Shown: positions 25,611-49,962 of the stretch, in pieces
Layout of the letters: each line of letters starts with the position of its first letter
Numbering within the stretch: the stretch's first letter is position 1
NCBI RefSeq assembly: GCF_000424465.1
Contig: NZ_AUJY01000002.1
Location: forward strand, 186,001-250,000
Direction of reading: 5' to 3'
DNA from: Butyrivibrio hungatei NK4A153
Lineage (GTDB): Bacteria; Bacillota; Clostridia; Lachnospirales; Lachnospiraceae
DNA length: 64,000 bases
The notes under the pieces: model-generated
The model's input: only the letters and a program-made list of their open reading frames with translations
Told to the model about the DNA's origin: nothing
Database searches by the model: none
Position numbers and translations under genes: made by a program

Positions 25611-25678
25611 AATAAGCAAAGTTTATATTCCGCTATAAGTATTCCTTAATTTTCACCTAAGTACCCTTATGCTATGAT
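25611..25678 (+). promoter_or_regulatory. cysK promoter with sulfur-regulon palindrome (site 1)
   Basis: Palindrome TTATA-TTCCGC-TATAA at 25623-25638, an 11-nt gap, weak -35 TTTTCA (25650-25655), 17-bp spacer, -10 TATGAT (25673-25678). The 49-bp block 25611-25659 matches the block at 37663-37711 at 44 positions. The layout suggests an activator, such as a LysR-type protein, helping polymerase at a poor -35 box. Confidence 0.8.
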
Positions 25679-25737
25679 TCAATCATCAAAACAAACACGA
25701 ACCAAAATAAAAATGAAATATAAAGGAGAAATGAATC

Positions 25738-26673
25738 ATGGCAGACATCAAAGAAAGCGCATTGGAACTTATCGGAGGAACACCTCTTCTTAAACTTAAC
25801 GGATATAGCAAGAAGGTTGGAGCAACAAATGCAAATATCCTTGCAAAGCTTGAGTACTTGAATCCCGCAGGATCTGTAAAAGACAGAGTAGCACTTAGCA
25901 TGATCGAAGATGCTGAGAAGAGCGGAAAGATCAAGCCCGGAGCAACAATCATCGAGCCTACAAGCGGAAATACAGGTATCGGACTTGCAGCAGTAGCAGC
26001 AGCTAAGGGATATAAAGCAATCCTTACACTTCCCGACACGATGAGTGTTGAGAGAAGAAATCTTCTTAAGGCATACGGCGCTGAGATCGTTCTTACAGAA
26101 GGCGCAAAGGGTATGAAGGGAGCGATTGCCAAGGCAGAAGAACTTGAAAAAGAGATTGAAGGTTCAGTAATTCTCGGACAGTTCGTTAACCCTGCAAACC
26201 CTGCAATCCACAAAGCAACAACAGGTCCTGAGATCTGGGATCAGACAGACGGAAAGGTTGACATCTTCATCGCAGGTATCGGTACAGGCGGAACAATTAC
26301 AGGTGTAGGCGAGTATCTCAAAGAGCAGAATCCTAACGTTAAGGTTATTGCAGTTGAGCCCGCTACAAGCCCCGTTCTTTCAAAGGGTGAAGCAGGACCT
26401 CACAAGATTCAGGGAATCGGTGCAGGTTTCGTTCCTGAGACACTTAATACAAAAGTTTATGATGAAGTTATCGCAATTGAGAACGATGATGCATTTGCAG
26501 AAGGCAAGAACTTCGCAGTATCAGAGGGTATCCTTGTAGGTATCTCATCAGGTGCAGCTCTTAAGGCAGCTACAATCGTTGCGGCAAGAGAAGAGAACAA
26601 GGGAAAGAACATTGTTGTACTTCTTCCCGATTCAGGTGACAGATACCTTTCAACACCTCTTTTTGCGAACTGA
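25738..26673 (+). CDS. cysK: Cysteine synthase (O-acetylserine sulfhydrylase)
   Basis: PLP enzyme joining sulfide to O-acetylserine to make cysteine. Motifs are canonical: NPAGSVKDR with the PLP Lys, [12 protein letters not shown] substrate loop, [10 protein letters not shown] phosphate loop, and [11 protein letters not shown]. 311 residues, normal. Ribosome site AAGGAGAAA. First gene of the sulfur supercluster; its promoter carries the regulon palindrome. Compare the divergent paralogue inside the nitrogenase-like operon. Confidence 0.96.
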
Positions 26674-26747
26674 ATGATATAGGCGTCATAAGTCAATAAT
26701 GCGTACATGCTTGCATGTTAAGCATTCATTGACTTCGTATATCATTC
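26672..26747. repeat. Small palindromic dispersed repeat, copy 1
   Basis: Outer arms GAATGATAT (26672-26680) / ATATCATTC (26739-26747), inner arms AGTCAATAATGC / GCATTCATTGACT, and an apex of 23 nt beginning GCGTACATGC (26701-26723) that is identical at 48733-48755. It starts at the cysK stop codon; there is no T tract, so it is not a simple terminator. Confidence 0.75.
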
Positions 26748-26837
26748 ACATTATAAAAACAACTACACTAGCAGACCGCCGGTGGTCATTTCCACAAAGC
26801 GATCAACATACAATTATATTATTGAACTGACTAATAT

Positions 26838-26871
26838 GAGACCGCTTGTCATCATACATGATGAGCGGTCT
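26838..26871 (+). promoter_or_regulatory. Hairpin in the PatB-gene leader
   Basis: Perfect 9-bp stem GAGACCGCT / AGCGGTCTC with inner CATCAT/ATGATG pairing, ending about 13 nt before the ribosome site of the next gene. No T tract follows. It may modulate translation or be an operator; role unknown. Confidence 0.45.
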
Positions 26872-26894
26872 CAATTTAAAAAGAGGTAATTATC

Positions 26895-28082
26895 GTGAGT
26901 AAATACGATTTTGATAAAGTGACAGACAGGCATGGAACAAGCAGCCTTAAATATGATTTTGGAATGGAAAGAAGGAGGCGCGACGATCTGCTTCCGCTCT
27001 GGGTTGCGGACATGGACTTCAGGCTCCCTGAAGAGATACTTGATGACATAAGATCAAGAGTGGATCACGGCATTTTCGGATATACAGATCCCAAGGAAGA
27101 CTATCAACAAGCTGTCGCAAACTGGTATGGCCAAAGGCATGGCTTTGAAATAGAAAAAGACTGGAATACTGTTGTACCCGGAATAGTTTATGCAATCGCG
27201 GTTGCTGTAAGAGCTTTTACTAAGCCCGGCGAGAGCGTCATTATTCAGGAGCCTGTTTATTATCCGTTCAGGGAGACAATAGAACTTAACAAAAGAAAAG
27301 TCGTAAACAATCAGCTCGTATATAAAGACGGGCATTACGAGATAGATTTTGAAGATTTTGAGAAAAAAATTGAAGAAGAAAATGTAAAACTGTTTCTTCT
27401 CTGCAGCCCTCATAATCCTGCGGGACGTGTGTGGACAAAAGAGGAACTTATAAAGCTTGGAGATATCTGCGTAAAGCATAACGTTACGATATTTGCGGAT
27501 GAGATACACTCAGATTTTGTGTTCAAGGGATATAAGCACACTTCGTTCATTACACTCGGAGAAAAATATACGGAGAATCTTATTCTCGGAACTTCACCGA
27601 GCAAGACCTTTAATATTGCGGGACTTCAGATTGCAAACATAATCATTCCGAATGAATCTGTAAGACACAGATTTAAGACAGAGAACGACGCAGGAGGCTA
27701 TAGCCAGTGCAATGCAATTGGCCTTACGGCTACCAAAGCCTGCTACGAAAAAGGCGGTCAATGGGTTGATGAGCTACTCACATATCTTGAAGGAAATCTT
27801 GATTACATCAGGTCTTTTATAAAAGAAAAACTTCCCAAGATAAAACTTATAGAACCGGAAGGAACATATCTTATCTGGCTTGATTTTGCGGACGCTTTTG
27901 ATAATTATCGGGAACTTAGGAAGTTTATAGAAGATGAGGCTAAGCTCTGGCTTGACGGCGGAGTTATCTTCGGAAGAGAAACGGCTCTTTTTGAAAGAAT
28001 CAATATAGCTAGCCCCCGAAGCATCATTGAACAGGCAATGGAGCAATTATACGCTGCATACATAAAAAGATTTGGCAATTAA
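26895..28082 (+). CDS. patB: PatB/MalY-type cystathionine beta-lyase (C-S lyase)
   Basis: Class I/II aminotransferase-fold PLP enzyme that cleaves cystathionine or cysteine conjugates to thiol, pyruvate and ammonia. Features: LPLWVADMDFRLPEEI, the CSPHNPAGRVWTKEEL substrate/cofactor segment, FADEIHSDF, and the PLP Lys in GTSPSKTFNIAGLQ. 395 residues, normal. It ends 12 nt before a second PLP enzyme, so the two form an operon. In this sulfur cluster it likely releases sulfide or methanethiol from organic donors. Confidence 0.9.
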   Translation: MSKYDFDKVTDRHGTSSLKYDFGMERRRRDDLLPLWVADMDFRLPEEILDDIRSRVDHGIFGYTDPKEDYQQAVANWYGQRHGFEIEKDWNTVVPGIVYAIAVAVRAFTKPGESVIIQEPVYYPFRETIELNKRKVVNNQLVYKDGHYEIDFEDFEKKIEEENVKLFLLCSPHNPAGRVWTKEELIKLGDICVKHNVTIFADEIHSDFVFKGYKHTSFITLGEKYTENLILGTSPSKTFNIAGLQIANIIIPNESVRHRFKTENDAGGYSQCNAIGLTATKACYEKGGQWVDELLTYLEGNLDYIRSFIKEKLPKIKLIEPEGTYLIWLDFADAFDNYRELRKFIEDEAKLWLDGGVIFGRETALFERINIASPRSIIEQAMEQLYAAYIKRFGN

Positions 28083-28094
28083 GGAGGAGTGAAT

Positions 28095-29285
28095 TTGAGT
28101 ACGGAGATTGACTGTAGACAACAAGAAAAGTACAGCGTGGATACAAAGTGCCAGCTGAATGATCAGAGCCTTAAGGATGTATGGGGAGCTGTCAGTTATC
28201 CGATTTATCAGACGGCTACATTTGCGCATAAGGGACTTGGTGAGAGCACGGGATTTGATTATACGAGAATGCAGAATCCCACAAGGCAGCAGCTTGAAGC
28301 TGTTGTAGCTCTTTTGGAAAACGGAAAAGATGCGATAGCTTTTGCAAGCGGAATGGCTGCGGTTGCGGCTGTGATGGAGCTCTTTTCACCGGGAGATCAT
28401 TTCATAATCGATTCGGATCTCTACGGAGGAAGCGTAAGACTATTTAATGAGATCAGCAAAAAGAACGGTCTGACATACACGACGGCTGATTTAAGCAGCG
28501 AAGATGTGATCCCTCTTATAAAAGAGAACACGAAGGCTGTGTATCTTGAGACACCGACCAATCCTATGATGAATGTCACGGATATAGAGGAGCTGGCGAA
28601 AAAAGTCCATGAGAGAGGACTCATCCTCATTGTGGATAATACTTTTTTGTCACCTTATTATCAGAACCCGCTCGACCTGGGCGCGGACATAGTGCTTCAT
28701 TCGGGAACAAAGTTCCTCGGAGGGCACCACGATACCATAGGCGGTTTCGCAATCGTCAAGGATGATGAGATCGATGAGAGGCTTCGTTTCATTTACAAGA
28801 CGACAGGCGCGGGACTAAGCCCTTTTGACAGCTGGCTTATCCTAAGAGGAATCAGGACGTTGTCGGTAAGACTTAACAAGGCTCAGGAGAATGCTTTTGC
28901 AATCGCGGAGTATCTTAAGAAAAACAAGCATGTAACGAAAGTAATCTATCCGGGGCTTAAAGAGCATCCGGGGTATGAGATCATGAAGAAGCAGGCAAGA
29001 GGCTTTGGCGCGATGCTTACTTTTGAAGTTGATTCTGCCGAGTTTGCAAAAGAGATCCTTGCAAATGTAGATCTTATCTATTTTGCGGAGAGTCTTGGCG
29101 GAACGGAGACACTTATAACGTATCCCATCACGCAGACACATGCGGATGTTCCCGCAGACGTACTTGAAAAAAACGGCATCAACAATCGAATTCTCAGGCT
29201 TTCTGTAGGAATAGAAGGAACGGAAGATCTTATAAGTGAATTTGAAAGAGTATTTGAAGTGTCAGAAAAGAATACTCAAAAATAG
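28095..29285 (+). CDS. Cys/Met-metabolism PLP enzyme (cystathionine lyase/synthase type)
   Basis: Trans-sulfuration family (MetB/MetC/MccB) enzyme. Motifs: YTRMQNPTRQQLE, FASGMAAV, YLETPTNPMMNV, PLP Lys in LHSGTKFLGGHHDTIGG, and SLGGTETLITYP. Start assigned to TTG 28095 (MSTEID) because AGGAGG ends 7 nt upstream; a GTG at 28089 is too close to it. About 396 residues. It could be cystathionine gamma-synthase, gamma-lyase or O-acylhomoserine sulfhydrylase; sequence alone does not decide. Operon partner of the PatB-type lyase. Confidence 0.85.
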   Translation: MSTEIDCRQQEKYSVDTKCQLNDQSLKDVWGAVSYPIYQTATFAHKGLGESTGFDYTRMQNPTRQQLEAVVALLENGKDAIAFASGMAAVAAVMELFSPGDHFIIDSDLYGGSVRLFNEISKKNGLTYTTADLSSEDVIPLIKENTKAVYLETPTNPMMNVTDIEELAKKVHERGLILIVDNTFLSPYYQNPLDLGADIVLHSGTKFLGGHHDTIGGFAIVKDDEIDERLRFIYKTTGAGLSPFDSWLILRGIRTLSVRLNKAQENAFAIAEYLKKNKHVTKVIYPGLKEHPGYEIMKKQARGFGAMLTFEVDSAEFAKEILANVDLIYFAESLGGTETLITYPITQTHADVPADVLEKNGINNRILRLSVGIEGTEDLISEFERVFEVSEKNTQK

Positions 29286-29414: not shown

Positions 29415-29576
29415 ATGGCAAAGGTAGAAGTACCCCTGACAAAAGAAGTTGATGCTGCTGTTTTGGAAGGGATAATTGATAGCATCAAAAGTTTACAATA
29501 TGGCACGGTCACGATCACGGTTCATGATGGCAAAGTAACTCAGATTGAGACCAGTCGTAAACAGAGATTCAGTTAA
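29415..29576 (+). CDS. yezD: YezD-family (DUF2292) small protein
   Basis: A 53-residue protein reading MAKVEVPLTKEVDAAVLEG then LQYGTVTITVHDGKVTQIE, the DUF2292 beta-hairpin signature. Start ATG 29415 follows GAGGAG at good spacing; a longer frame beginning at 29355 is unlikely. YezD proteins are often found with sulfur-assimilation genes; their role is unknown. It is the first gene behind the regulon promoter and leads into the nitrogenase-like genes. Confidence 0.82.
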   Translation: MAKVEVPLTKEVDAAVLEGIIDSIKSLQYGTVTITVHDGKVTQIETSRKQRFS

Positions 29577-29678: not shown

Positions 29679-30551
29679 ATGGCTAGAACGTATGAAGAAC
29701 TTGAGAAAAACCATCCGTGCTTTGGTGGTTGCAAGTTCAACGCAGGCAGGATTCATCTTCCGGTAAGCCCCGGATGCAACATTGCGTGCAGATTCTGTGA
29801 CAGAACGATAAACGACGTTGAACAGCGCCCCGGAGTAACGTCTAAGATAATAACCCCGGATGAAGCGAATACATTTATTGATAAAGCACTTGGTTTTGTT
29901 CCAAATATCAAGGTCGCGGGAATAGCAGGACCCGGAGATACTTTGGCAACGGACTACGCGTTTGAGACTTTCAAAAAGATCGGCGAGAGTCATCCTGAGC
30001 TTCTTAAGTGCATGAGCACTAACGGACTTCTTCTTTACGAGAGGGCCGATGAGCTTATAAACATTGGAATAGACACTCTTACAGTTACTGTTAATGCGGT
30101 AGATCCTGAGATTGAAGCAAAACTCAATGAGTATGTTATCTGGCACGGCGAGAAGATATACGGAGAAGAGGGAGCTAAGATCCTTATCGAAAACCAGCTT
30201 AAGGGAATCAAGAAGGTTGCCGATGCAGGTGTTACGGTCAAGATAAATACGGTTCTCGTACCCGGTATAAACGATGAGCATATAGCTACCATCGCGAAGA
30301 CGGTAAGAGAATTGGGAGCGATAATCTACAACATAATTCCGCTCATACCGCAGCATCAGCTTAAAGATATACCAAAGCCCACTTGCGAGCAGATAGAAAA
30401 GGCAAGGAGCGATGCGGAACAGTATATCAAGGTATTCAGACACTGCGCACACTGCAGAGCCGACGCAGTAGGAGTACCGGGTGTTTCGGAGTACAGTAAG
30501 CTCGTATATCAGAGCAGATTAAATGTAAGGAATACTTTTTCACATGGATAA
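29679..30551 (+). CDS. nifB: NifB-type radical SAM cofactor maturase
   Basis: Radical SAM enzyme that builds NifB-co, the [8Fe-9S-C] precursor of nitrogenase cofactors, inserting a carbide from SAM. The N-terminus reads HPCFGG, GRIHLPVSPGCNIACRFCDR with the CX3CX2C cluster ligands, then RPGVTS and the GIAGPGDTLA SAM-binding segment, all hallmarks of NifB. Extra cysteines in RHCAHCRADAVG near the C-terminus fit the additional cluster sites. At 290 residues it is the SAM-only form, with the NifX-like domain encoded by the next gene, overlapping by 8 nt. Presence implies the neighbouring D/K complex carries a NifB-co-like cluster. Confidence 0.93.
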   Translation: MARTYEELEKNHPCFGGCKFNAGRIHLPVSPGCNIACRFCDRTINDVEQRPGVTSKIITPDEANTFIDKALGFVPNIKVAGIAGPGDTLATDYAFETFKKIGESHPELLKCMSTNGLLLYERADELINIGIDTLTVTVNAVDPEIEAKLNEYVIWHGEKIYGEEGAKILIENQLKGIKKVADAGVTVKINTVLVPGINDEHIATIAKTVRELGAIIYNIIPLIPQHQLKDIPKPTCEQIEKARSDAEQYIKVFRHCAHCRADAVGVPGVSEYSKLVYQSRLNVRNTFSHG

Positions 30552-30918
30552 AGCAGTTTACAGAGTCGCGCTCGCATCTACGGACAACAGGTTTGTGGAT
30601 CAGCACTTTGGAAGAGCTGAGAGCTTCCTTATAGTGGATGTGGATGATAACGGCGAATACGAAGAGATTGAACAGCGATTTGTTGACCCTGTGTGTAACG
30701 GAGGGCATCATGACGCTGCTAAATTAAAAAGAGGAGTAGACGGAGTTTCCGATTGCAACTTTGTTCTGGCAGCCAGAATAGGCGATGGAGCAAGAGGAGA
30801 GCTTGAAGAACGCGGTATAGCGGCATTTGAGATGCCGGGGCCTGTTTCGGAGGCGATAAGGAAACTTGACGGATATCTGAAACTACTTCAGGAAATGAAT
30901 AGTGCAAATGGACAGTAA
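30544..30918 (+). CDS. NifX/NifB-C-terminal-type iron-molybdenum cofactor carrier
   Basis: A 124-residue protein of the dinitrogenase iron-molybdenum cofactor family: YRVALASTDNRFVDQHFGRAESFLIVDVD, FVLAARIGDGARGELEERGI. In many clostridia this domain is fused to the C-terminus of NifB; here it is a separate gene overlapping nifB by 8 nt. Likely receives or carries NifB-co. Confidence 0.87.
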   Translation: MDKAVYRVALASTDNRFVDQHFGRAESFLIVDVDDNGEYEEIEQRFVDPVCNGGHHDAAKLKRGVDGVSDCNFVLAARIGDGARGELEERGIAAFEMPGPVSEAIRKLDGYLKLLQEMNSANGQ

Positions 30919-31038: not shown

Positions 31039-31902
<864 letters not shown>

Positions 31903-31939: not shown

Positions 31940-32935
31940 ATGTCAAACGTATATAAATCAATTACAGAATTGGTAGGAAAAACACCGCTTCTTGAGCTTT
32001 CGGGATTTGAGAAGCATCACGATCTCAAGGCAACCGTTATCGGAAAACTTGAGTATTTTAACCCTAATCAGAGCGTAAAGGACAGAATTGCCCTTTCAAT
32101 GATAGAAGATGCTGAGAAGAGCGGAAAACTTAAGCCCGGCGACACTGTTGTTGAGACAACAAGCGGAAATACAGGTATCGGACTTGCAGCAATAGCGGCT
32201 GCAAAGGGATATCCTTTCAGAGTTTATATTCAGGATCAGGTTAGTAAGGAGAGATTCCAGGTAATCCAGGCATTTGGAGGAAAGACAATTAAACTTGGAG
32301 ATGAACCTGTTATCGCAAAAGTTCTTGATGAGACAGGCGGCGACTTCGTTGCTGCGATCAAGGCGCTTAAGGAAGATGTTCTTGATAAGGAAGAGAATGT
32401 CGTATTCCTCGATCAGTGTTCGAATCCCGCAAACCCTGCGGTACACAAGAGAACAACAGGCCCCGAGATCTGGGAGGATACAGACGGTGAGGTAGATATT
32501 CTTGTTGCCTGCGTAGGAACAGGCGGAACAATCTCAGGAACAGGTGCTTATCTCAAGGAAAAGAATCCTAACGTAAAGGTAGTCGGTGTTCAGCCGGGAC
32601 CTAATTCACTTCCTGACAAGGATAAGAATCAGCCTGAAGAAGAGATCACTGGAGTACATCCTTTTGAAGGTGTTGCTGAAAATCTCATTCCTTCAACACT
32701 CGACAGAAAGATTTATGACGAATATATCGAAGTTGAGGCTCTTGAAGCATTTGAGGCAGCAAGAGAGGTTGCGGCAAACGACGGTATCCTTATCGGTACA
32801 TCATCGGGAGCGGCTCTTTATGCAGCAAAGAAGCTTGCGCAGAGACCTGAGAATGCAGGAAAGAAGATAGTTGCTATATTCCCTGATACAGGACTCAGAT
32901 ATCTTTCAACCAATCTTTTTGCAACACAAGAATAA
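31940..32935 (+). CDS. Divergent cysteine-synthase paralogue inside the nif-like operon
   Basis: CysK/CBS-fold PLP enzyme, 331 residues, 37 nt after nifH and 26 nt before the D gene. It keeps the PLP Lys (NQSVKDR) and GTGGTISGTG phosphate loop, but differs from the upstream CysK at substrate-facing positions: NPNQSVKDR instead of [17 protein letters not shown] instead of EPTSGNTG, and HPFEGVAENLIP instead of the usual GIGAGFVP. It also has an insertion (PNSLPDKDKNQPEEE). Probably uses a different acceptor or sulfur nucleophile, for instance a thiol produced by the reductase; that is inference. Confidence 0.85.
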   Translation: MSNVYKSITELVGKTPLLELSGFEKHHDLKATVIGKLEYFNPNQSVKDRIALSMIEDAEKSGKLKPGDTVVETTSGNTGIGLAAIAAAKGYPFRVYIQDQVSKERFQVIQAFGGKTIKLGDEPVIAKVLDETGGDFVAAIKALKEDVLDKEENVVFLDQCSNPANPAVHKRTTGPEIWEDTDGEVDILVACVGTGGTISGTGAYLKEKNPNVKVVGVQPGPNSLPDKDKNQPEEEITGVHPFEGVAENLIPSTLDRKIYDEYIEVEALEAFEAAREVAANDGILIGTSSGAALYAAKKLAQRPENAGKKIVAIFPDTGLRYLSTNLFATQE

Positions 32936-32961: not shown

Positions 32962-34437
32962 ATGGCAACAAATTTAAATAACTCCAATGTAGCTACAAGA
33001 GAGAACCGAATTGGATCTATCACCGGCTACATCGGTTCTCTCAAAGATCTTGCAAGCCAGAGTGAGTGCGGTACTTTGAAAGGCTGTTCAAGATGTTTTT
33101 CACAGTCAAGTTCATGCCTTTCAAGCTGTGCACTCGGTCAGCTCTCTGCTATAAGAGATATTGCTATTATTCACCACGGCCCTGCGGGATGTTCCGTTGC
33201 GGCAGCAGGCACATATTACCTTGATAAGGTTATGGCCAAAAAACGTGGTGTAACGAATAACACTGTTTATGTCGGAACCGATATGAACGAGAATGATACG
33301 ATATTTGGCTCTACATCTACGCTTCGAAACATCATCGTTGAAGTAAACAAAAGATATAGCCCAAAGGCAATTTTTGTTTCAAGTTCCTGTGCAACGGGTA
33401 TCATCGGTGAAGATATCGACAGCATCGTCGATGAGTTAAAAGAAGAGATTGATGTGCCTATCGTTGCGGTTCACTGCGAAGGATTCAAGTCAAGAATCTG
33501 GGCAACAGGTTTTGATATCGCAGATCACGCGGTACTTCAGTCAATCGTTCAGCCTCCGAGAGAAGGCGTAAAGAGCAACAAGATCAACTTCAAGAATTTC
33601 TATGAGAGTGCAAGACCTGAGATCATCGAGATGTTCAAGAACTTTGATCTCGAGCCTACATTCCTTTACTGTAACTCAACTGTTGAAGAGCTTTCACATA
33701 TTTCGGAAGCTGTTGCCACAACATGTATCTGCGGAACACTCGGAAACTACTTAGGAAACGTTCTTGAAGAAAAGTATGGCGTTCCTTACGTAAGAAGTAT
33801 CAACCAGTGTGGCATCGTCGGTTTTGAGGCATGGCTTCGCGAGATTGGTAAGGTTACGGGAAGAAGCGACAAGATTGAGAAGTATATTGAAGAGCAGCGT
33901 GCAATCTACCTTCCGAAGATTGAAGAAGTTAAAAAAGAGCTCAAAGGACTCAGAGCAGTACTCGGCATGGGACCCGGTTATACTTTCGAAGTATCCCGTG
34001 TTCTTAATGAACTTGGAATTGAGGTTGTATGGGCACTTGCATGGCACTATGACAAGAAGTATGAGAACGGAGACGTTCCGCCTTCAATGAAATATCTTTT
34101 GGATAACAATATTGATTTCGAGGCCAGTGTTGCCGATCAGCAGAATTTCGAGGTTATGAATATCCTCAACAAATATCAGCCCGATCTGTATCTTTCAAGA
34201 CATCCGGGTTCAACCGTATGGGCTATCAAGAACGGAACACCTTCAGTGTATGTTGCCGATGAGTATATGATTTTCGGTTACAAGCACACATTGGAATTTG
34301 CATATTCCATACTCGATAGCATCAGGAACAGAAGCTTTGAAAAAAACCTCGCAAAGAGAACAAAGCTTCCTTACACGGATTGGTGGTACAAGCAGAACGT
34401 AGGAGCTTTCCTTGTGCAGGAAAAGGACAAAAAATGA
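32962..34437 (+). CDS. Nitrogenase-like component 1, D (alpha) subunit
   Basis: Catalytic subunit of a nitrogenase-like reductase, 491 residues. P-cluster-type ligands: Cys52 or Cys56, Cys77 (HHGPAGC) and Cys143 (SSSCATGIIGEDI). The cofactor-binding cysteine is kept: Cys257, 12 residues before EEKYG, aligns with NifD Cys275. The FeMo-co histidine (NifD His442) is not: the aligned stretch at residues 431-434 reads VADE. The N-terminus is cysteine-rich (Cys36, 42, 45, 52, 56). With no nifEN in the window this fits group IV-type enzymes such as methylthio-alkane reductase rather than N2 reduction. Subfamily assignment needs phylogeny. Confidence 0.85.
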   Translation: MATNLNNSNVATRENRIGSITGYIGSLKDLASQSECGTLKGCSRCFSQSSSCLSSCALGQLSAIRDIAIIHHGPAGCSVAAAGTYYLDKVMAKKRGVTNNTVYVGTDMNENDTIFGSTSTLRNIIVEVNKRYSPKAIFVSSSCATGIIGEDIDSIVDELKEEIDVPIVAVHCEGFKSRIWATGFDIADHAVLQSIVQPPREGVKSNKINFKNFYESARPEIIEMFKNFDLEPTFLYCNSTVEELSHISEAVATTCICGTLGNYLGNVLEEKYGVPYVRSINQCGIVGFEAWLREIGKVTGRSDKIEKYIEEQRAIYLPKIEEVKKELKGLRAVLGMGPGYTFEVSRVLNELGIEVVWALAWHYDKKYENGDVPPSMKYLLDNNIDFEASVADQQNFEVMNILNKYQPDLYLSRHPGSTVWAIKNGTPSVYVADEYMIFGYKHTLEFAYSILDSIRNRSFEKNLAKRTKLPYTDWWYKQNVGAFLVQEKDKK

Positions 34438-37489: not shown

Positions 37490-37662
37490 GCTTTGTTCTC
37501 CCAATAATCGATTATTTTAAAAATGCTTTTTATCTGCATTGGTTATATTTTATTGGGAATCCAAAAGAATTATAATATATCATTTGCACAATCCGGACAC
37601 TATATTTTTTCCGTATTGGAAAATTCATATAATAAAGAACCTATGGGACAGCAGTGCTTGGG

Positions 37663-38743: not shown

Positions 38744-38798
38744 TATAATTACTTATTACTTTCTATATTTGATGACAGTAATAAATTAAGGGGACATG

Positions 38799-39560: not shown

Positions 39561-40333
39561 TGTCATATATTCATATAGAAAATGCAGGAAAAACCTTCAT
39601 ACAAAATGGCACGCAGTTCACAGCTTTGTCGGATGTAAATCTCGATATTGAAAAAGGTGAGTTTATCTGCCTCCTGGGACCTTCGGGATGCGGAAAAAGT
39701 ACTCTTTTAAATGCTATTGCAGGCTTTGATCCGGTAAATCTAGGAAGCGTTAAGATTGACGGAAACGAGGTAAAGGCGCCAAGCACAAAGAATGTAACTA
39801 TCTTCCAGAACTATGGTCTTCTTCCGTGGCGCACTGTTATCAAGAACGTAGAGCTTGGCCTCGAATCAAAAGGTATTGAGAAAGATAAGAGAAAAGAGAT
39901 TGCAAAAGAGTATCTTAAACTGGTTAAGCTTGAGAATTTTGCAGATAGTTTTCCAAGGCAGCTCTCCGGTGGAATGAAACAGAGAGTTGCGATAGCCAGG
40001 GCACTTGCGGTGGAGCCCGATATCATCTTTATGGATGAGCCTTTCGGAGCACTTGATGCGATTACCAGAATGAAGCTTCAGGATGATATTTTGGATATCT
40101 GCAAAAAGCAAAAGAAAACAATAATCTTTGTAACTCATGACATAGAAGAAGCTGTTTATCTGGCGGACAGGATTGTTGTAATGACACCCAACCCCGGCAA
40201 AGTAAAAGGTGTTATAACAGTTCCGATTCACCATTTCAGAGATAGGACAAGCGGAGACTTTTTGCTTATAAGAGACAAGATCTTCGATCTGCTTCAGATG
40301 AAGATAGAGGAAGATATTGAATATACGATTTAA
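39560..40333 (+). CDS. SsuB-type ABC ATPase
   Basis: Nucleotide-binding subunit, 257 residues: Walker A GPSGCGKST, Q-loop QNYGLLPW, signature LSGGMKQR, Walker B IIFMDEPFGALD and switch His in VTHDIEEA. The LPW after the Q-loop is typical of the nitrate/sulfonate/taurine class. It ends 12 nt before cooS. Confidence 0.92.
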   Translation: MSYIHIENAGKTFIQNGTQFTALSDVNLDIEKGEFICLLGPSGCGKSTLLNAIAGFDPVNLGSVKIDGNEVKAPSTKNVTIFQNYGLLPWRTVIKNVELGLESKGIEKDKRKEIAKEYLKLVKLENFADSFPRQLSGGMKQRVAIARALAVEPDIIFMDEPFGALDAITRMKLQDDILDICKKQKKTIIFVTHDIEEAVYLADRIVVMTPNPGKVKGVITVPIHHFRDRTSGDFLLIRDKIFDLLQMKIEEDIEYTI

Positions 40334-42673: not shown

Positions 42674-43564
42674 ATGAAAAAAAGAACAATTAAAAATATT
42701 CTGTTATCGGGAGTGCTTGTTGGCGCAATGATGTTATCTGCAGTAGGATGCGGAAAGGCATCACAGGGAGCTGATACTGAAGTAAAGGCAGCAGAAGATA
42801 ATATAGAAGGCGAAGCACAGAGCGAAGGAAGCGGGCAGGTGCAGAAGATAGTTATAGGATCGGGAACCAATTACAATCCTTACTGCTATATAGATGAAAA
42901 CGGAGATGCTGTTGGTTATGAGTATGACGTACTAAAGGAAATCGACGAGCTACTTCCTCAGTATGAATTTGAGTATCAGTCAATGGCATTCGATCAGCTG
43001 GTTCTTTCACTTGAATCAGGAAAGATTGATCTTGCAGCACATCAGTATGAGTACACACCTGAGAGGGAAGAGAAATATCTTTTCTCAGGAGAGTCTTACA
43101 CATCATATATCACTTACCTTGCAGTTCTTATAGATGATAACGCTAAAAGCCTTGAAGACCTTACAGGTGAGAAGATCAGAACCGGTGGTTCAACAAGTGC
43201 CACAACTCAGATCCTTACAAAGTGGAACGAGGAGCATCCGGGGCAGGAAGTTGTTCTTGTAACCTCAGAGGGTAGCTCAGATGAAGAAGCAGCTGCTGCA
43301 CTTAAGTCAGGAGCAGCAAGAGCATCCGTACTTAAGAAGAGCGATGTTATCAAGATGAATACTAACTTCAGCGATGACGGAAAAGAATGGCTTAAGTCTG
43401 TAGGCGAACCCATCAACAATTCAAAGACTTATTATCTGTATCGCAAGGATGAGACAGAACTTAGAGATGCGGTAGACGGAGCTCTTAAGACACTTAAGGT
43501 AAACGGAAAGCTTTCTGAGCTTGCAATTAAGTGGGTTGGATACGACGTTACAGAAGAGGAATAA
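42674..43564 (+). CDS. Cystine/polar amino-acid ABC substrate-binding lipoprotein
   Basis: Family 3 solute receptor. Signal peptide with lipobox SAVGC, an acidic linker (about residues 30-58), then IVIGSGTNYNPYCYIDENGDAVGYEYDVLKEI and KIDLAAHQYEYTPEREEKYLFSG; the PEREKKYLFS-like stretch is characteristic of TcyJ/TcyK-type cystine receptors. About 296 residues. Followed by two permeases and an ATPase, the same arrangement as Bacillus TcyJKLMN. Confidence 0.85.
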   Translation: MKKRTIKNILLSGVLVGAMMLSAVGCGKASQGADTEVKAAEDNIEGEAQSEGSGQVQKIVIGSGTNYNPYCYIDENGDAVGYEYDVLKEIDELLPQYEFEYQSMAFDQLVLSLESGKIDLAAHQYEYTPEREEKYLFSGESYTSYITYLAVLIDDNAKSLEDLTGEKIRTGGSTSATTQILTKWNEEHPGQEVVLVTSEGSSDEEAAAALKSGAARASVLKKSDVIKMNTNFSDDGKEWLKSVGEPINNSKTYYLYRKDETELRDAVDGALKTLKVNGKLSELAIKWVGYDVTEEE

Positions 43565-43570
43565 ATAGAT

Positions 43571-44281
43571 ATGGAAAATTATTTTAGTATTGAAAGATTT
43601 ATACATGTCTTTCCTAAAGTGATTTCAAGTTTACCTGTTAATCTTCACATTGTTTTTTGGTCAATGCTTCTTGGCACTTTACTGGCCGTATTTGTAGCAG
43701 TGCTTAGATTACATAGAGTACCTGTGGTAAGCGGTTTACTGGGATTGTATATATCCTTTATGAGGGGTACGCCGCTCCTGGTGCAGATGATGATCGCGTT
43801 TTACGGAATCCCAATAGTACTCGGCACAGTATTTTTAAATCTTTTCGGGATCAATCTAAACAGACTTGAACCCGTGATATTTGTAGAAATAGCGATTATT
43901 CTGAATGAGGGGGCTTTCCTTGGAGAGATATTTAGAGGAGCCATAACATCTGTACCTGCGGTTCAGTCGGAAGCAGGATATTCTATAGGAATGACGGGGG
44001 CACAAACCTTTGTAAGGATTGTGCTCCCGCAAGCTTTTAAGGTGGCAATTCCGCATTATGGCGTTGACCTCATAGGAGTTTTTCAGAATACATCACTTGT
44101 ATTTATGCTTGGAGTCGTAGATCTTTTGGGAAGAGCTAAGACAATTGGTGCGGCGTCCGGCCACACTATTGAAGGGTATGTTGCGGCAGCACTTATATAT
44201 ATTGCGTTTAGCTTACTGTTAAAAGGAACTTTTCTTCTCATAGAAAAGAAACTGAGCGGTGGAGAGGTTAAACTTGTTTAA
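43571..44281 (+). CDS. Amino-acid ABC permease 1 (TcyL/TcyM-like)
   Basis: HisM/GlnP-type permease, 236 residues, five membrane segments, with LYISFMRGTPLLVQMMIAFYG and the EAA loop (AVQSEAGYSIGMTGAQTFVRIVLPQA). Starts 7 nt after the receptor gene. Two different permeases imply a heterodimeric channel. Confidence 0.88.
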   Translation: MENYFSIERFIHVFPKVISSLPVNLHIVFWSMLLGTLLAVFVAVLRLHRVPVVSGLLGLYISFMRGTPLLVQMMIAFYGIPIVLGTVFLNLFGINLNRLEPVIFVEIAIILNEGAFLGEIFRGAITSVPAVQSEAGYSIGMTGAQTFVRIVLPQAFKVAIPHYGVDLIGVFQNTSLVFMLGVVDLLGRAKTIGAASGHTIEGYVAAALIYIAFSLLLKGTFLLIEKKLSGGEVKLV

Positions 44282-44292
44282 GGAGTTGGGAT

Positions 44293-45006
44293 ATGAGTTT
44301 TAGTGTATCAAGTTTTTGGGAGTCTCTTGTGTCAGCACTAGCCTATGCTCCGGTAACCATCAAACTTACTGCGATCACCTTTGTTGTAAGTCTGGTTCTT
44401 GGAACAATCATAGCGACGATAAGGTATTACAAGATACCTGTTCTTTCACAGATCTTTGCGGTGTTTGTGACTGCATATCTGGGACTACCCACTATGGTGG
44501 CAATTCTTTTGTATAACATCATATTTATGACATGCTATGCAGATGTGGCAAATGTACTTCACATTACAGTGCCCATCAGCGAAGTTGATCCGATCATAAT
44601 AGGTTATTTTGTACTTATCCTTGGGACAAGCTGTTCTGTAAGTGAGAGCGTAAGAGGTGCTTTCAGAGGAATAGACAAGGTGCAATTTGAAGCGGGCTAC
44701 AGTATAGGTCTTGGCAAGTTCAAGACACTTACAAGAGTTATCTATCCTCAAATGGTGCCAATATTACTTCCGGGTTTACAGAATTCTCTGATAGGACTAT
44801 TGAAGGCATCCAATCTTGTGAGCGCTATCTCAGTCATTGAGATCATGACAGGAGCTCTTTTGCCAAGCCTTTTGTACTACAGTTATCTTGAAGGATATGT
44901 GGCAGCAGCGCTTGTATACTGGCTTATAGGAATCGGTATAGAGGTGATAGGATACCTGGCTGAGAAAAACAGCGGAAAATATTTAAAGCAAGTGGCGACA
45001 GGCTGA
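44293..45006 (+). CDS. Amino-acid ABC permease 2 (TcyL/TcyM-like)
   Basis: Second HisM/GlnP-type permease, 237 residues, with VFVTAYLGLPTMVAILLYN and an EAA loop (KVQFEAGYSIGLGKFKTLTRVIYPQMVP). AGGAG precedes the start. Forms a pair with permease 1. Confidence 0.88.
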   Translation: MSFSVSSFWESLVSALAYAPVTIKLTAITFVVSLVLGTIIATIRYYKIPVLSQIFAVFVTAYLGLPTMVAILLYNIIFMTCYADVANVLHITVPISEVDPIIIGYFVLILGTSCSVSESVRGAFRGIDKVQFEAGYSIGLGKFKTLTRVIYPQMVPILLPGLQNSLIGLLKASNLVSAISVIEIMTGALLPSLLYYSYLEGYVAAALVYWLIGIGIEVIGYLAEKNSGKYLKQVATG

Positions 45007-45074
45007 AAACATAGGAAATATGAGCATATTAATGCACACAATGACATTGTGTTTGGAACAGAGGAGGTGCGGCG

Positions 45075-45827
45075 ATGATAGAACTTACAGGTGTAAAAAA
45101 ATCCTTTGGGAAACTGGAAGTTCTTAAGGATGTTTCGATAAAAGTAGATGACGGAGAAGTGGTAGTAATACTGGGGCCAAGCGGCTCCGGAAAGACTACG
45201 CTTCTTCGGAGTATAAATTTTCTTGAGAAGGCCGACAGCGGAACCATGAAGTTTTCCGATAAGATCATAAATTTTAAGAACCCCAAGAAAAAAGATATTC
45301 TGTACATGAGAAGACATACAGGCTTTGTGTTCCAGAACTACGGACTGTTTGCTCACAAGACGGTTCTTCAGAATGTAATGGAAGGACTTGTTCAGGTTCA
45401 GAAAAAGAGTAAGCACGAAGCACAGCAGATTGCAGAGGAAGTCCTTCAAAATGTTGGGATGCTTGAAAAGAAAGATTCTTATCCATCACAGCTATCCGGC
45501 GGACAGCAGCAGAGAGTAGGAATAGCAAGGGCTGTGGCTCTAAAGCCTGAAGTGATCCTTTTTGATGAGCCCACATCTGCCCTTGATCCTGAGCTTGTGG
45601 GAGAAACCTTGGAAGTAATAAAGAAGGTTGCAAAGACGGGAATAACCATGATCGTAGTGACCCATGAGATGTCTTTTGCCGAGGATGTGGCTGACAGGGT
45701 TATCTTTATGGATGGCGGAGTTGTAGTGGAAGAAGGAAAGCCCGGAGAAATATTCTATAAACCAAAGGAAGAGCGTACAAGGCAGTTCCTTTCAAGGATC
45801 ATCCCTCAGGATGCATATGTGATCTGA
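45075..45827 (+). CDS. Amino-acid ABC ATPase (TcyN/GlnQ-like)
   Basis: ATPase of the polar amino-acid class, 250 residues: Walker [10 protein letters not shown], signature LSGGQQQR, Walker [15 protein letters not shown], switch His in [10 protein letters not shown]. Strong GAGGAGG ribosome site. Last gene of the four-gene importer; the LysR gene follows 79 nt later. Confidence 0.92.
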
Positions 45828-45906
45828 CAGGGACAGAGTATAAAATATGTACTAAATATATGGCAATGTGTTATTATGTATAAAAATTTATTTGGAGATT
45901 ATACAT

Positions 45907-46803
45907 ATGACAATTTTGCAGCTTAAATATGTAATAGCCATTGACGAGGAATGCTCAATGAGAAAGGCGGCTGACAGGCTTTACGTGTCACAGCCCGGGC
46001 TTTCGAGTGCGGTCAGAGATCTTGAGAATGAGCTTGGAATCCAGATATTCCAGCGTGTACATAACGGCGTTGTGACAACAGTTGCAGGCGGCGCTTTTAT
46101 CGCTTATGCAAGAAGCGCGGTTGAGCAGTTTGAGAAGATTGAGGACAAATATATCAATGCCAAGACTGACAAGCCAACTTTCTCAGTATCGATGCAACAT
46201 TATACAGTAGCTGTAAATGCTTTTATAGAAACAGTCAAGGAATACGACCTTGAAGAGTACCAGTTCTCTATCAGAGAGACTCAGACAAGTGAAGTAATAG
46301 ACGACCTTAAGAGCCTTAGAAGTGAAGTCGGAGTTATTGCTCTTAGCGAGTTTAACAGGAACATGTTCAAAAAGATTTTTGCGGACGCTTCTCTTGAGTT
46401 CCATGAGCTCTTTACAAGAGAGACTTACGTATATCTTAGAAAGGATCACCCTCTTGCAGACAGAGAAGAAATTTCGCTTAAAGATCTGCAGGATTATCCG
46501 TGCATGGTATTCGATCAGGGCGACAACACATCCTTCTATTACAGAGAGGAAGCGCTTGCAACCTATGATTATAAAAAGGTCATAAGCACAAACGAAAGAG
46601 CAACATCCGTAGAGCTTATGCTTGGCCTTAACGGCTACGCTGTAGGTGCGGCAATGCTCGGTGAGAGTCTTAGCACTTCCGAGATTCATAACATCAAACT
46701 CAAGGAAGAAGAGACATTAACGCTTGGCTATATCATTCGAAAAGGCAGTGACCTCAGCGATATGGCTCAGACCTTTATTGAGAAACTTAAACAATATAAT
46801 TAA
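45907..46803 (+). CDS. LysR-type transcriptional regulator
   Basis: N-terminal winged HTH (TILQLKYVIAIDEECSMRKAADRLYVSQPGLSSAVRDLENELG) followed by a periplasmic-binding-like sensor domain. Start ATG 45907 is preceded by TTTGGAG; a longer frame from 45868 is unlikely. About 298 residues. In Bacillus a LysR protein (AscR/YtlI) controls the equivalent cystine-importer operon. It is also the only regulator inside the sulfur cluster, so it is a candidate reader of the TTATA-N6-TATAA palindromes, which have the dyad form LysR proteins like. That link is inference. Confidence 0.9.
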   Translation: MTILQLKYVIAIDEECSMRKAADRLYVSQPGLSSAVRDLENELGIQIFQRVHNGVVTTVAGGAFIAYARSAVEQFEKIEDKYINAKTDKPTFSVSMQHYTVAVNAFIETVKEYDLEEYQFSIRETQTSEVIDDLKSLRSEVGVIALSEFNRNMFKKIFADASLEFHELFTRETYVYLRKDHPLADREEISLKDLQDYPCMVFDQGDNTSFYYREEALATYDYKKVISTNERATSVELMLGLNGYAVGAAMLGESLSTSEIHNIKLKEEETLTLGYIIRKGSDLSDMAQTFIEKLKQYN

Positions 46804-46855: not shown

Positions 46856-46909
46856 GAATAAGAAGCGTATTTAACCCATCAATATCTTTAGCTGAATTTA
46901 ATCTGTGAT

Positions 46910-47572
46910 TTAGCTCATTTTTTTGTACATGTAATTACCAAGCATCTGAATGAACTGAACAAATGCTATAAGTACAACTGAACAAACGACAAGATATTCT
47001 GTCTTGTACTGCTGGTAGCCGTAGCGGATTGCGATGTCGCCGATACCGCCGCCTCCGACAGTTCCTGCCATTGCGGAGTAGCCGATAAGTGAGATGACAA
47101 GAAGTATCACACCGTTTAGCATTCTCGGAATAGATTCTTTTACATAGACACGCATCAGAATCTGGAAGTTTGAAGCTCCGAAAGATCTTGCGGCTTCAAT
47201 GACTCCGGGATTGGTCTCACGAAGGCTTGTCTCAAACACTCTTGCGATATAGGGAATTGCCGATACCGTAAGAGGCACGATAGAAGCTGTTGTTCCGATA
47301 GATTTTCCGACAACCGCTCTTGTAAAAGGGATAAGTATTACAAGAAGGATGATGAACGGAAAGCTTCTGAATACGTTTACCAGAAAGCTAAGAATCTCAT
47401 AAACGATTTTGTTTGGCTTAAGTCCGTCAGGAGCTGTAAGCGTCAGTATTATGGCGGGAATAAATCCTATTATCACTGAAAAAAGTGTTGACCAGAATAC
47501 CATGTATAAAGTTTGTTTAAAGGCAGTCATTATAACAGAGCTCATGCCTGCATCAGATAAAATTCCCGACAT
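46910..47572 (-). CDS. metI: Methionine ABC permease
   Basis: MetI permease, 220 residues, five membrane segments, with the EAA loop VIEAARSFGASNFQILMRVYVKESIP and GYSAMAGTVGGGGIGDIAIRYGYQQY typical of D-methionine permeases. Start overlaps the metN stop by one base (TAATG). Third gene of metQ-metN-metI. Confidence 0.93.
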   Translation of the reverse strand: MSGILSDAGMSSVIMTAFKQTLYMVFWSTLFSVIIGFIPAIILTLTAPDGLKPNKIVYEILSFLVNVFRSFPFIILLVILIPFTRAVVGKSIGTTASIVPLTVSAIPYIARVFETSLRETNPGVIEAARSFGASNFQILMRVYVKESIPRMLNGVILLVISLIGYSAMAGTVGGGGIGDIAIRYGYQQYKTEYLVVCSVVLIAFVQFIQMLGNYMYKKMS

Positions 47573-48543
47573 TATTTGATTACCTCCCAGGTTACGTTTT
47601 TGCTGTCAAGAAAAGCGCATGCTTTCTCAAGATCTTTTTCATCCATATTAAGGACGAGGCTTCCGTAGACGTCCTCTCTGAAGTCTTCAAGCTTGGCCCA
47701 ACAAATGTTGAAGTTTGTTTGAAGCTCCCTTGCCATCTCGGTTACGATAGGGCGCTGATTGCCTTCGCCGAAGAAAAAGAGCTTCAAATTGACTCCCGTT
47801 GAGGGAAGCTTGTCACTTTCTTCGCGGAGGAACTCACGCATTTCTTGTTCCTTGGGCCATACAAAGAGCTGTTCAGGTTTACCTATTGCAAGCACTTTGC
47901 CGCCGCTAAGAAATGCAACCTTCTGGCAGATCTGCTTAACGACTTCCATCTGATGAGTGACGATTATGATGGTAATGCCCATTTCTCTATTTATCTTTTG
48001 TAAAAGAGCCAAGATGCCCTTTGTAATCTCGGGATCGAGTGCGCTTGTTGCTTCGTCGCACAAAAGAAAATCGGGATCGAGTGCAAGTGCCCTTGCAATT
48101 GCGACACGCTGCTTCTGACCGCCTGAGAGTTCCTTTGGCTTTGAATGTACTTTTTCTTCAAGGCCGACGAGCTTTATAAGATTAAGGATTTTTTCTTTTG
48201 CTTCCGGAGTGTTTGTAGGAATTCCCCAGAATTTCATGGGAAGAGCAACGTTTTGATATACGTCGAGTCTTTCAAGGAGGTTAAAGCCCTGAAATATCAT
48301 GCCCATTCTCTTTTGAAGATTTCGAAGAACTTTTTTGTTCTTGATGTCGACGGTTACATCGTCAACAACGATCGCGCCTTCATCATAAGATTCAAGGCCG
48401 TTTATGCAACGAAGAAGAGTGGATTTACCGGCACCGCTTTGTCCGATGATTCCGAATATCTCACCTTTTTCGATGTCGATATTTACTCCTTTAAGTACCT
48501 CGGTTTTGTTGAAAGTTTTTTTGACATTTTTAATTTGTATCAT
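47572..48543 (-). CDS. metN: Methionine ABC ATPase with NIL domain
   Basis: ATPase domain with Walker A GQSGAGKST, signature LSGGQKQR and Walker B LLCDEATSALDPE, then a C-terminal NIL domain (about residues 245-320) that senses methionine for trans-inhibition. Start ATG 48543 (MIQIKNVKK) is chosen over an in-frame GTG 15 nt upstream; AGGTGG precedes both. About 323 residues. Confidence 0.94.
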   Translation of the reverse strand: MIQIKNVKKTFNKTEVLKGVNIDIEKGEIFGIIGQSGAGKSTLLRCINGLESYDEGAIVVDDVTVDIKNKKVLRNLQKRMGMIFQGFNLLERLDVYQNVALPMKFWGIPTNTPEAKEKILNLIKLVGLEEKVHSKPKELSGGQKQRVAIARALALDPDFLLCDEATSALDPEITKGILALLQKINREMGITIIIVTHQMEVVKQICQKVAFLSGGKVLAIGKPEQLFVWPKEQEMREFLREESDKLPSTGVNLKLFFFGEGNQRPIVTEMARELQTNFNICWAKLEDFREDVYGSLVLNMDEKDLEKACAFLDSKNVTWEVIK

Positions 48544-48639
48544 AGATAGTAAGACCACCTGTCTTATTATATTAGGAAAATTATATAAGCGTTCCCGACG
48601 CTAATCTATTATTACATTACTGCTTTTAAATATCAAATA

Positions 48640-48677
48640 TGACACGTCACTGGCAAGGAGACGTGTCATATTTTTTG
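48640..48677. promoter_or_regulatory. Hairpin in the metQ-metN spacer
   Basis: Perfect stem ATGACACGTC / GACGTGTCAT. On the plus strand a TTTTTT tract follows, but the genes here are on the minus strand, where only ATTTGATATTT follows. It could act as a leaky attenuator or 3'-end stabiliser for metQ mRNA. Confidence 0.5.
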
Positions 48678-48706
48678 TAGTATGTAATATGAAAGGTAGG
48701 ATTTGT

Positions 48707-48875
48707 ATGATATGGGGGCGGAAAGTCAAAAAGCGTACATGCTTGCATGTTAAGCTTTTTGACCTAACGGCCCTAACAAACATGAGGAATTAGCAATTTA
48801 CGTAGTAAATTAGCGTTTTCCGAATGCTTGTAGAAGTGCGAGAGTTTCGAAGAAACGGAGCACTTCGTATATCAT
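48707..48875. repeat. Small palindromic dispersed repeat, copy 2
   Basis: Outer arms ATGATAT (48707-48713) / ATATCAT (48869-48875), hairpin GTCAAAAAGC / GCTTTTTGAC with the same 23-nt apex as copy 1 (48733-48755), and a shared ACTTCGTATATCAT at the right end. About 100 bp between hairpin and right arm are extra relative to copy 1 and contain two further hairpins (AATTTAC-GTA-GTAAATT at 48795; nested GAAGTGC/GCACTTC near 48834-48867). Confidence 0.7.
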
Positions 48876-48900
48876 ATACGTTATTGGCTTTTAAAATGGT

Positions 48901-49818
48901 TTACTGTGGATCAATAAATGAAGGAATTACTGCTCCCTTGTATGTCTCTTCAATATATGATTTAACTTCGTCGGACTTAAGTGCTGCAACAAGAGCTTTA
49001 ATCTTCTCTGACTCCTGATTTCCGTCCTTAACTACAAGGAAGTTAGTTCTCTTTACTGTTGTCTCATCGTCAAATTCCTCGATATCAAGTGCGGGATGCT
49101 TAGCCGGAAGGTCTGCTTCAAGTGCATAGTTTCCGTTGATCGCTGCTGCATCAAGATCGGGAAGTGAAAGAGGAAGGTTAGCTGCCTCAAGAGGTGTGAT
49201 CTTATATCCGTGAGGGTTAGCGTCCTTATCTTTTGAAAGAGAATCCTCTGTGTAGCTTGCATCTTCTCCGAAAGAACCTTTTGATGTAAGAAGTCCCTTC
49301 TGAACAAGAAGGTCAAGTGCTCTTGCACCGTTGTCGGGATCGTTTGGAATACCGATCTCTGCACCGTCGGGAATCTCTTCAAGCTTAGTATATTTTTCTG
49401 AATAGATACCCATGGGCTCAATGTGAATTCCTGCTACTGCTGTAAGGTGAAGACCTGCGTCTTTGTTCTGCTGGTCAAGATAACCAAGTGTCTGGAAGTA
49501 GTTGGCATCAATCTCACCTGCTTCAAGTGATGTGTTGGGAAGTACATAATCCTGGAAGACAACTGTCTCAAGTGTCCATCCGTCTTTTGCAAGAACTTCC
49601 TTTACGATATTATCAAGAATCTCAGCGTGAGGAACGGGTGTTGCTCCTACAGTGATCTTCTTGTCTGTGTCAGATGCTGAATCAGCTTCAGCCTGTGTAG
49701 CTTCTTCTGTTGCAGGAGCCTCTGTAGTCTGTGACTCTGCTTTTGATCCGCAGCCTGTAAGTGCTCCGAAAGCAAGTGCTGCTGTTAAGACCAAACTTGT
49801 AATTACTCTCTTTTTCAT
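48901..49818 (-). CDS. metQ: Methionine-binding lipoprotein
   Basis: MetQ/NlpA-family receptor, 305 residues. Signal peptide with lipobox GALTGC, an Ala/Glu/Thr-rich linker (about residues 27-52), then ITVGATPVPHAEILDNI, DANYFQTLGYLDQQN and IPNDPDNGARALDLL, all standard. It leads the metQ-metN-metI unit, transcribed from a promoter near 49960 with a structured leader. Confidence 0.94.
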   Translation of the reverse strand: MKKRVITSLVLTAALAFGALTGCGSKAESQTTEAPATEEATQAEADSASDTDKKITVGATPVPHAEILDNIVKEVLAKDGWTLETVVFQDYVLPNTSLEAGEIDANYFQTLGYLDQQNKDAGLHLTAVAGIHIEPMGIYSEKYTKLEEIPDGAEIGIPNDPDNGARALDLLVQKGLLTSKGSFGEDASYTEDSLSKDKDANPHGYKITPLEAANLPLSLPDLDAAAINGNYALEADLPAKHPALDIEEFDDETTVKRTNFLVVKDGNQESEKIKALVAALKSDEVKSYIEETYKGAVIPSFIDPQ

Positions 49819-49861
49819 AATGCTTCATTTCCTCCTCGATACCATTGTAAACAATGGCTTA

Positions 49862-49962
49862 ATTCATACCGATGCTGCAAGATACTAGTACGCTATACAG
49901 TGTGCTGTATGATCAAGATTCAAGTCTGCAGCAATTTCCTTGAGCGGTATGAATGCATTATA
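49862..49962 (-). promoter_or_regulatory. metQ promoter and structured leader
   Basis: Minus-strand -10 TATAAT at 49957-49962. Directly downstream, ATTCATACCG (49954-49945) is exactly complementary to CGGTATGAAT (49871-49862); between them TGCTGCA pairs with TGCAGCA and ATACAG pairs with CTGTAT around a CACA loop. The nested arms suggest a riboswitch-like leader; the S-box, SMK-box and T-box consensus sequences are absent. An inferred start near 49950 would trim the outer helix, so a DNA operator is an alternative. Confidence 0.5.

Follow-up and report, generated by a model that had tools for sequence, protein, structure and literature searches.

The closest described systems are nitrogenase-like enzymes acting on sulfur compounds. 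Methylthio-alkane reductase, MarBHDK of Rhodospirillum rubrum (9FMG, PMC12552129), combines D and K subunits carrying P-cluster cysteines, Cys270 and an Arg428-His429 pair with a reductase component H and, as published, the NifB-type partner MarB. In isethionate reductase, IsrBHDK of Rhodobacter capsulatus (PMC11423573), nitrogenase-like H, D and K are accompanied by a radical SAM partner and a nearby sulfonate-type importer; IsrD is described there as lacking most cluster cysteines, the product as sulfite and IsrB as unlike NifB. MarHDK-like genes have also been reported by type 1 mlp clusters in anaerobes, mostly Firmicutes (PMC10418091). We analysed a stretch of 64,000 nucleotides of Butyrivibrio hungatei NK4A153 (contig NZ_AUJY01000002.1, positions 186,001 to 250,000), hereafter the window, which contains genes for a NifB-like protein, two NifX-like proteins, NifH, a cysteine synthase homologue (CysK2) and nitrogenase-like D and K subunits. 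Comparison of sequences and gene order indicates that this core is probably a Mar-type organosulfur reductase system and no nitrogenase, whose C-S cleavage would feed cysteine synthesis.

The D and K subunits

D (32962..34437, +) and K (34457..35755, +) are homologous to MarD and MarK over their full length. D is 34.2% identical to R. rubrum MarD and scores 296 bits against MarD versus 120 against NifD, while K scores 373 bits against MarK versus 82.8 against the top NifK. The NifD profile gives only 137.9 bits on D, far under its cut-off of 653.55, and in our alignment window D lacks NifD Gln191, His195 and the motif of the FeMoco ligand His442, HS(Y/W)DYSGPY, the NifD residues being named as in PMC12552129. 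A NifEN-like pair was sought in the own genome, which is 100% complete, and none was found: the genome holds two D/K pairs, with a top nifD-profile score of 140.2.

The P-cluster cysteines are retained in both window subunits. All 80 relatives of D (defined below) keep Cys66, Cys91, Cys158, Cys270, Trp195, Phe199, His375 and Arg428-His429, as window D keeps Cys270 and Arg428-His429, and three cysteines of MarK recur in every one of the 77 K sequences aligned. The Arg-His pair is considered a possible hallmark of Mar by Lago-Maciel et al. (PMC12552129). Two positions of the MarD pocket have changed: His194 is replaced by Ile in 80/80 relatives, while 63 relatives have Gly and 17 have Ser in place of Cys73. 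The substrate is thus probably different from that of MarD.

In a midpoint-rooted tree of 55 D sequences, some of whose long branches were flagged, window D and R. rubrum MarD fall into one clade of 27 rows (100/100), and ten nitrogenase-type rows stand separately (100/100). Of those ten, six were scanned: three pass the NCBI NifD cut-off, one that for NifE, one those for nitrogenase-alpha and one no cut-off. Inside the 27-row clade, 17 window-side rows are sister to 10 MarD-side rows, which places window D outside the MarD clade. As far as sequence can tell, D and K are of the Mar type and separate from nitrogenase. The preliminary description of this DNA had proposed a system related to Mar and differently organised, which is borne out by sequence and gene order, D being in a sister clade and linked to sulfur genes. 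Neither subunit groups with NifDK (D in the tree, K by scores only) and the relatives retain sulfur genes as neighbours, so that the proposal survives on both counts.

Conservation and gene order

A search for relatives found 234, of which 80 loci with a D 85-100% identical were kept; they come from Lachnospiraceae, other Clostridia and Treponema. Neighbours were counted as found/missing within 9.9 kb of D, loci ending too early being set aside; matches count from 60 bits (35 for small genes), and some are diverged homologues. K is present in 80/0, nifH in 73/1, nifB and the first nifX each in 68/2, the second nifX in 67/8 and an ordinary cysK (cysK1) in 59/4. The genes patB (33/20), cgl (35/19, some only 31-36% identical) and LysR (28/25) vary, and cooS (4/42), a metN-like ATPase (5/43) and yezD (7/45) are rare. 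The values for cooS and its importer are lower bounds (the importer of locus L007 begins near the end of the available DNA), and those for yezD omit diverged copies visible by eye. The recurring unit is nifB-nifX-nifH-cysK2-D-K-nifX, plus a cysK1. The whole 24 kb had been taken for a single supercluster; only this unit recurs as such. Of the genes expected to co-occur with D/K, cysK2 does so and cooS does not, nor does yezD within the limit just given.

A CysK-family gene stands immediately upstream of D in 73 of 79 loci, and between nifH and D in 67 of the 73 loci where both are present; the embedded CysK paralogue that had been noticed in the window is therefore a regular feature. These genes form two classes, 48 being at least 60% identical to CysK2 and 25 below. 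CysK2 (31940..32935, +) and 13 aligned relatives from both classes retain the lysine that binds pyridoxal phosphate (PLP), whereas another sequence replaces the GIGAGF loop known from ordinary cysteine synthase, which suggests a different nucleophile or donor. The loop is present in CysK1 (25738..26673, +; PF00291). The NifB-like radical SAM protein (29679..30551, +) matches TIGR01290 at positions 7-277 (267.3 bits, under the cut-off of 343.65) and lacks the NifX tail; the following gene, nifX1 (30544..30918, +; PF02579), matches positions 330-437, so that NifB appears split in two. Cys14, 33, 37, 40, 256 and 259 of NifB, the radical SAM and NifB-type cysteines, occur in 68/68 aligned relatives. 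A Cys-rich NifX-like protein, nifX2 (35874..36383, +; PF02579), follows K. Compared with MarBHDK, the window system thus has separate NifB and NifX genes, a CysK2 in the operon and an H of the NifH type. It shares with the MarHDK-like genes of PMC10418091 the company of CysK, PatB and other sulfur genes, a likeness by gene content; those genes differ in being described with corrinoid methyltransferases.

Window D is 100% identical (rounded) to the D of Butyrivibrio sp. LB2008 and M55. Window-type D (at least 64% identity) occurs in 20 of 298 Lachnospiraceae genomes, plus one fragment, and across 299 genomes of the phylum in the own genome only, the next best being 50%. In Treponema/Spirochaetaceae (L048, L050, L055, L057, L058, L069, L070 and L083) D is 87-88% identical to the Butyrivibrio protein, which suggests transfer between phyla. 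The second D/K pair of the own genome (C6:41166-43321; L085:9041-11880) is about 30% identical, with Cys270 and without Arg-His, and no H or NifB match lies within its 20 kb. In 23/80 loci D is accompanied by another D at a distance of up to 10 kb: in 3 Spirochaetota it is a 47% Arg-His paralogue, in the other 20 a paralogue of roughly 30% (e.g. L018, L019, L029) in which Arg-His is missing in 19/19 aligned.

NifH and gut surveys

The nifH gene is the standard marker of nitrogen fixation. Window NifH (31054..31902, +) passes the TIGR01287 cut-off (464 bits; cut-off 394.35) and shares 75-81% identity with the NifH proteins encoded at 11 nitrogenase loci of Lachnospiraceae; what sets the window apart from clostridial NifHDK is D, K, their ligands and neighbours, and an own genome that lacks NifEN. 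When 52 H sequences were placed in a tree, those of nitrogenases grouped together (98/86) to the exclusion of window H, which sits with H proteins found beside several non-nitrogenase types of D. Over the 298 Lachnospiraceae genomes, 47 loci in 44 genomes pass TIGR01287. Sorted by nearest D, 17 of them have window-type D, 7 another Arg-His D, 11 a D without Arg-His and 11 NifD; the remaining one is interrupted by a contig break (G359, with window-type D on a different contig). NifD was found in 11 genomes at 628-684 bits (3 of the 11 over the curated cut-off), the following matches scoring at most 372 bits, and is thus absent from 33 of the 44 genomes with NifH over cut-off.

For human faecal 'cluster III' NifH, Igai et al. 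reported 97-98% identity to the proteins of Lachnospira multipara, Butyrivibrio and Lachnospiraceae bacterium 3-1; nothing, in their view, prevents N2 fixation by these Clostridiales (PMC4995403). We tested 11 relatives from named loci, including L. multipara ATCC 19207 (L067) and strain 3-1 (L027); part of these assemblies overlap with the 298 genomes. Each encodes exactly one NifH over the cut-off. In 10 of the 11 it lies within 3 kb of window-type D, in Treponema JC4 some 25 kb of the same contig separate the two, and NifD was detected in 0/11 (E up to 1e-60 and 1e-20). In the rumen, Greening et al. counted nitrogenases via NifH in 23% of 501 genomes, with low expression (PMC6776011), and the N2 fixation measured there is small despite the NifH-positive genomes (PMC6776011, PMC4995403). 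Gut nifH counts for this cluster may thus have been misread as nitrogen fixation; if the partner of NifH is indeed a sulfur enzyme, nifH surveys need correction.

A tRNA-Cys-like RNA in related loci

ARAGORN and a covariance model revealed a tRNA-Cys-like gene 26-147 nt upstream of nifB in 26 of the 80 loci (e.g. L027:6674-6743, L017:6758-6828), with anticodon GCA, once ACA; it is present in 25 of the 62 loci having nifB and 350 nt of upstream sequence. Covariance scores over 98 sources are 90-101 bits, then 46, then at most 13. The cloverleaf shows covariation, with 5 pairs altered on both sides and 29 such cells versus 9.6 in shuffles. U73 is the cysteine identity element of tRNA-Cys. The discriminator is A or G in 25/25 aligned tRNA-Cys-like RNAs and T in 15 ordinary tRNA-Cys; a sixteenth tRNA-Cys, in L012, scores 46 bits, stands behind an importer gene, has A at the discriminator and was left unclassified. 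Both kinds of RNA occur in genomes G545, G428 and G441.

Scanning the 298 genomes with strict filters, 16 candidates being scored per genome, gave 12 matches at 89-100 bits, one at 60.5 and a remainder of at most 54. The contexts given here have sulfur as a common theme; they concern these loci only, with most gene names assigned by eye. Seven of the 12 strong matches lie upstream of nifH in window-type clusters and one (G335) before a nifB-nifH-cysK-D cluster without Arg-His. The other four stand after cysK (G579, where the genes that follow the element appear unrelated to sulfur), in a PatB-cystathionine gamma-lyase-element-amidohydrolase-SsuABC arrangement (G426), before metK-SsuABC (G309) and before metK-SsuABC-H-D-K (G428), where the cysteines of D follow the pattern described for Isr. 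Behind a SulP transporter in G423, the 60.5-bit RNA (discriminator G) is followed by a JAMM-type protease gene and a sulfur-carrier-ThiF-rhodanese gene. Outside the 26 loci, positions of the RNA are L161:6847, L162:6976, L163:100 and L164:12839(-), with a weaker one at L166:3464(-). L164:2936-12909, from a genome of the window's family, reads metK, a substrate-binding protein, a short-chain dehydrogenase/reductase, a radical SAM protein, SsuCB, H, D and K, the D with the isethionate-reductase cysteine pattern.

Our guess is that the RNA acts as a decoy or mimic reporting the cysteine supply; it may instead be a working tRNA with different charging. Our searches turned up no description of a tRNA-Cys-like RNA without U73 heading sulfur operons. 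If regulatory, it would represent a new type of sulfur control.

Proposed function and alternative readings

In the mechanism that we propose, NifB and NifX, both seen in the sequence, would provide an [Fe8S9C] cluster, and NifH would transfer electrons to D2K2 at the expense of ATP. By analogy with Mar, D2K2 would hold P-clusters and the [Fe8S9C] cluster, bound by the equivalents of Cys270 and His429, and could reductively cut the C-S bond of a small organosulfur compound to a thiol or sulfide. The released sulfur would then be captured on an activated serine by CysK2, whose gene stands between those for NifH and D. PF01077 (sulfite/nitrite reductase) was sought in the own genome without any match, whereas 11 of 14 control genomes match; sulfite would therefore be useless barring an unknown reductase, which makes a thiol or sulfide more likely as the product. 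If the proposal holds, organic sulfur has a widespread route in anaerobes, perhaps with release of hydrocarbons, which can be tested directly in cultured Butyrivibrio and Lachnospira.

Several observations weigh against this proposal. At 34.2% identity and in a sister clade, D need not have its function in common with Mar, and window H is of the NifH kind, unlike MarH (477.5 bits against Clostridium pasteurianum NifH, 290.7 against MarH). The CysK gene before D is absent from 6 loci, L045 and L074 included, and may serve merely to supply cysteine for FeS clusters. No T-box or SAM riboswitch reaches the gathering score in the window or in 12 relatives, and the tRNA-Cys-like RNA is absent from the window, which leaves sulfur control of the window genes unsupported. 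The sulfur pathways of the own genome were examined for two families, PF01077 and O-acetylhomoserine sulfhydrylase.

Two O-acetylhomoserine sulfhydrylases pass the cut-off in the own genome and could turn methanethiol into methionine. Together with the cluster ligands and the Arg-His pair common to both systems, they speak for Mar itself, an enzyme that takes dimethyl sulfide and methylthioethanol as substrates and yields methanethiol for methionine; this identity is possible but not probable, given the position of D outside the MarD clade, the changes at His194 and Cys73, an H unlike MarH and an operon that includes CysK2. An isethionate reductase, with SsuABC importing a sulfonate from which D/K release sulfite, appears very improbable. 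An SsuABC-type importer does lie close by, and IsrBHDK and SsuCAB of R. capsulatus work in that way (PMC11423573), but the importer is not conserved alongside the core and the own genome lacks a PF01077 sulfite reductase. Moreover, IsrD is described with one P-cluster cysteine and no Cys275 equivalent and IsrB as unlike NifB (PMC11423573), whereas window D retains all these cysteines and its partner is NifB-like.

N2 reduction by this cluster is unlikely, and we give little credence to a nitrogenase of the group IV kind fixing N2 in gut and rumen. NifH passes the nitrogenase cut-off, and Igai et al. measured faecal 15N2 uptake, stated that several members retain the NifD histidine and cysteines, and cited 15N2 fixation by Endomicrobium proavitum, whose group IV enzyme lacks that histidine (PMC4995403). 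Their statement on the histidine disagrees with our alignment, and the faecal assay is silent on which organism was active, Klebsiella being their other candidate (PMC4995403). The NifD score, the missing Gln191, His195 and HS(Y/W)DYSGPY, the lack of a NifEN-like pair and the absence of NifD from all 11 named relatives argue against it.

The preliminary description had also tied the carbon monoxide dehydrogenase CooS (40346..42439, +; TIGR01702 over cut-off) to the system. A role of CooS in feeding NifH low-potential electrons from CO is very improbable. CooS lies near D, within 10 kb and on the same strand, in 4 loci, all Butyrivibrio, and G121 (L125) has a different type of CooS (35% identical, Cys333 retained) close to a D/K cluster that lacks Arg-His. 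However, CooS is missing in 42 covered loci, a minus-strand alpha/beta hydrolase (36428..37504) stands between the K and CooS genes, and the second Cys of the C-cluster ligands, alone among them, is changed to Asp both in the window and in four relatives. With this Asp, a His-rich N terminus and a neighbouring SsuA/C/B-type (NitT/TauT) importer (37796..40333, +; binding protein TIGR01728 at 131.5 bits, under the cut-off of 163.5), window CooS has the features of clade B group B-1 Ni-dependent CO dehydrogenases (PMC6344411), from which we saw no differences. According to Inoue et al., NitT/TauT importers accompany all clade B groups, nickel import being their guess, and the word 'nitrogenase' is absent from the main text of that paper (PMC6344411). 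The importer therefore probably belongs with CooS, and the two are, judging from these features, a neighbouring separate module of a described type; the functional link finds no support here.

Three new points stand out most: a sister clade that has a CysK of its own, the consequence for nifH and the tRNA-Cys-like RNA. Combining them, a separate nitrogenase-like clade would free sulfide, e.g. from methanethiol with release of methane, for a dedicated cysteine synthase. Methane or other small hydrocarbons would then be produced by bacteria in rumen and gut, and this clade, rather than nitrogenase, would account for much of the gut 'cluster III nifH'. In relatives it would be switched by a tRNA-Cys mimic not chargeable with cysteine, heading several organosulfur operons as a new kind of sulfur-sensing RNA. 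That all of this holds together is doubtful.

Other features of the window

The genes that had been listed, from cysK through metQNI, are all present where they were placed; the minus-strand hydrolase, which stands between the nif-like genes and those for the importer and CooS, had not been mentioned. Between cysK1 and nifB lie a PatB/MalY-type PLP C-S lyase (26895..28082, +; PF00155), named PatB by resemblance only, a trans-sulfuration PLP enzyme like cystathionine gamma-lyase/MccB (28089..29285, +; top NCBIfam match NF005810 at 429.5 bits, under the cut-off of 594) and a small YezD-like protein (29415..29576, +; PF10055 DUF2292, 57.3 bits). Beyond CooS follow a polar amino-acid importer (42674..45827) and a LysR regulator (45868..46803), both listed with the plus-strand genes, and MetQNI (46910..49818) on the opposite strand; the names MetI and MetN, and those of permeases and ATPases in the window, were assigned by resemblance.

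A Clostridiales-1 RNA (RF01699, 104.7 bits) lies at 48708-48874 (+), between metQ and metN and on the opposite strand to them. In the related locus L024, a NiCo riboswitch (RF02683, 68.8 bits) was found at 18411-18497, downstream of a metQNI-like set. Past metQNI, an array at 50110-50421 repeats a 75-base unit 4.2 times, the copies being 97% alike and the unit carrying the inverted pair GTATGACCTAA / TTAGGTCATAC, and an ApbE is encoded at position 50608. A HipA-like protein (PF07804, PF13657) occupies 23266-24468 (-), before the sulfur genes, and at 52758-55068 an aminotransferase, CobD-like by eye, and a CobT-type phosphoribosyltransferase (PF02277) perhaps mark the start of a cobalamin region.

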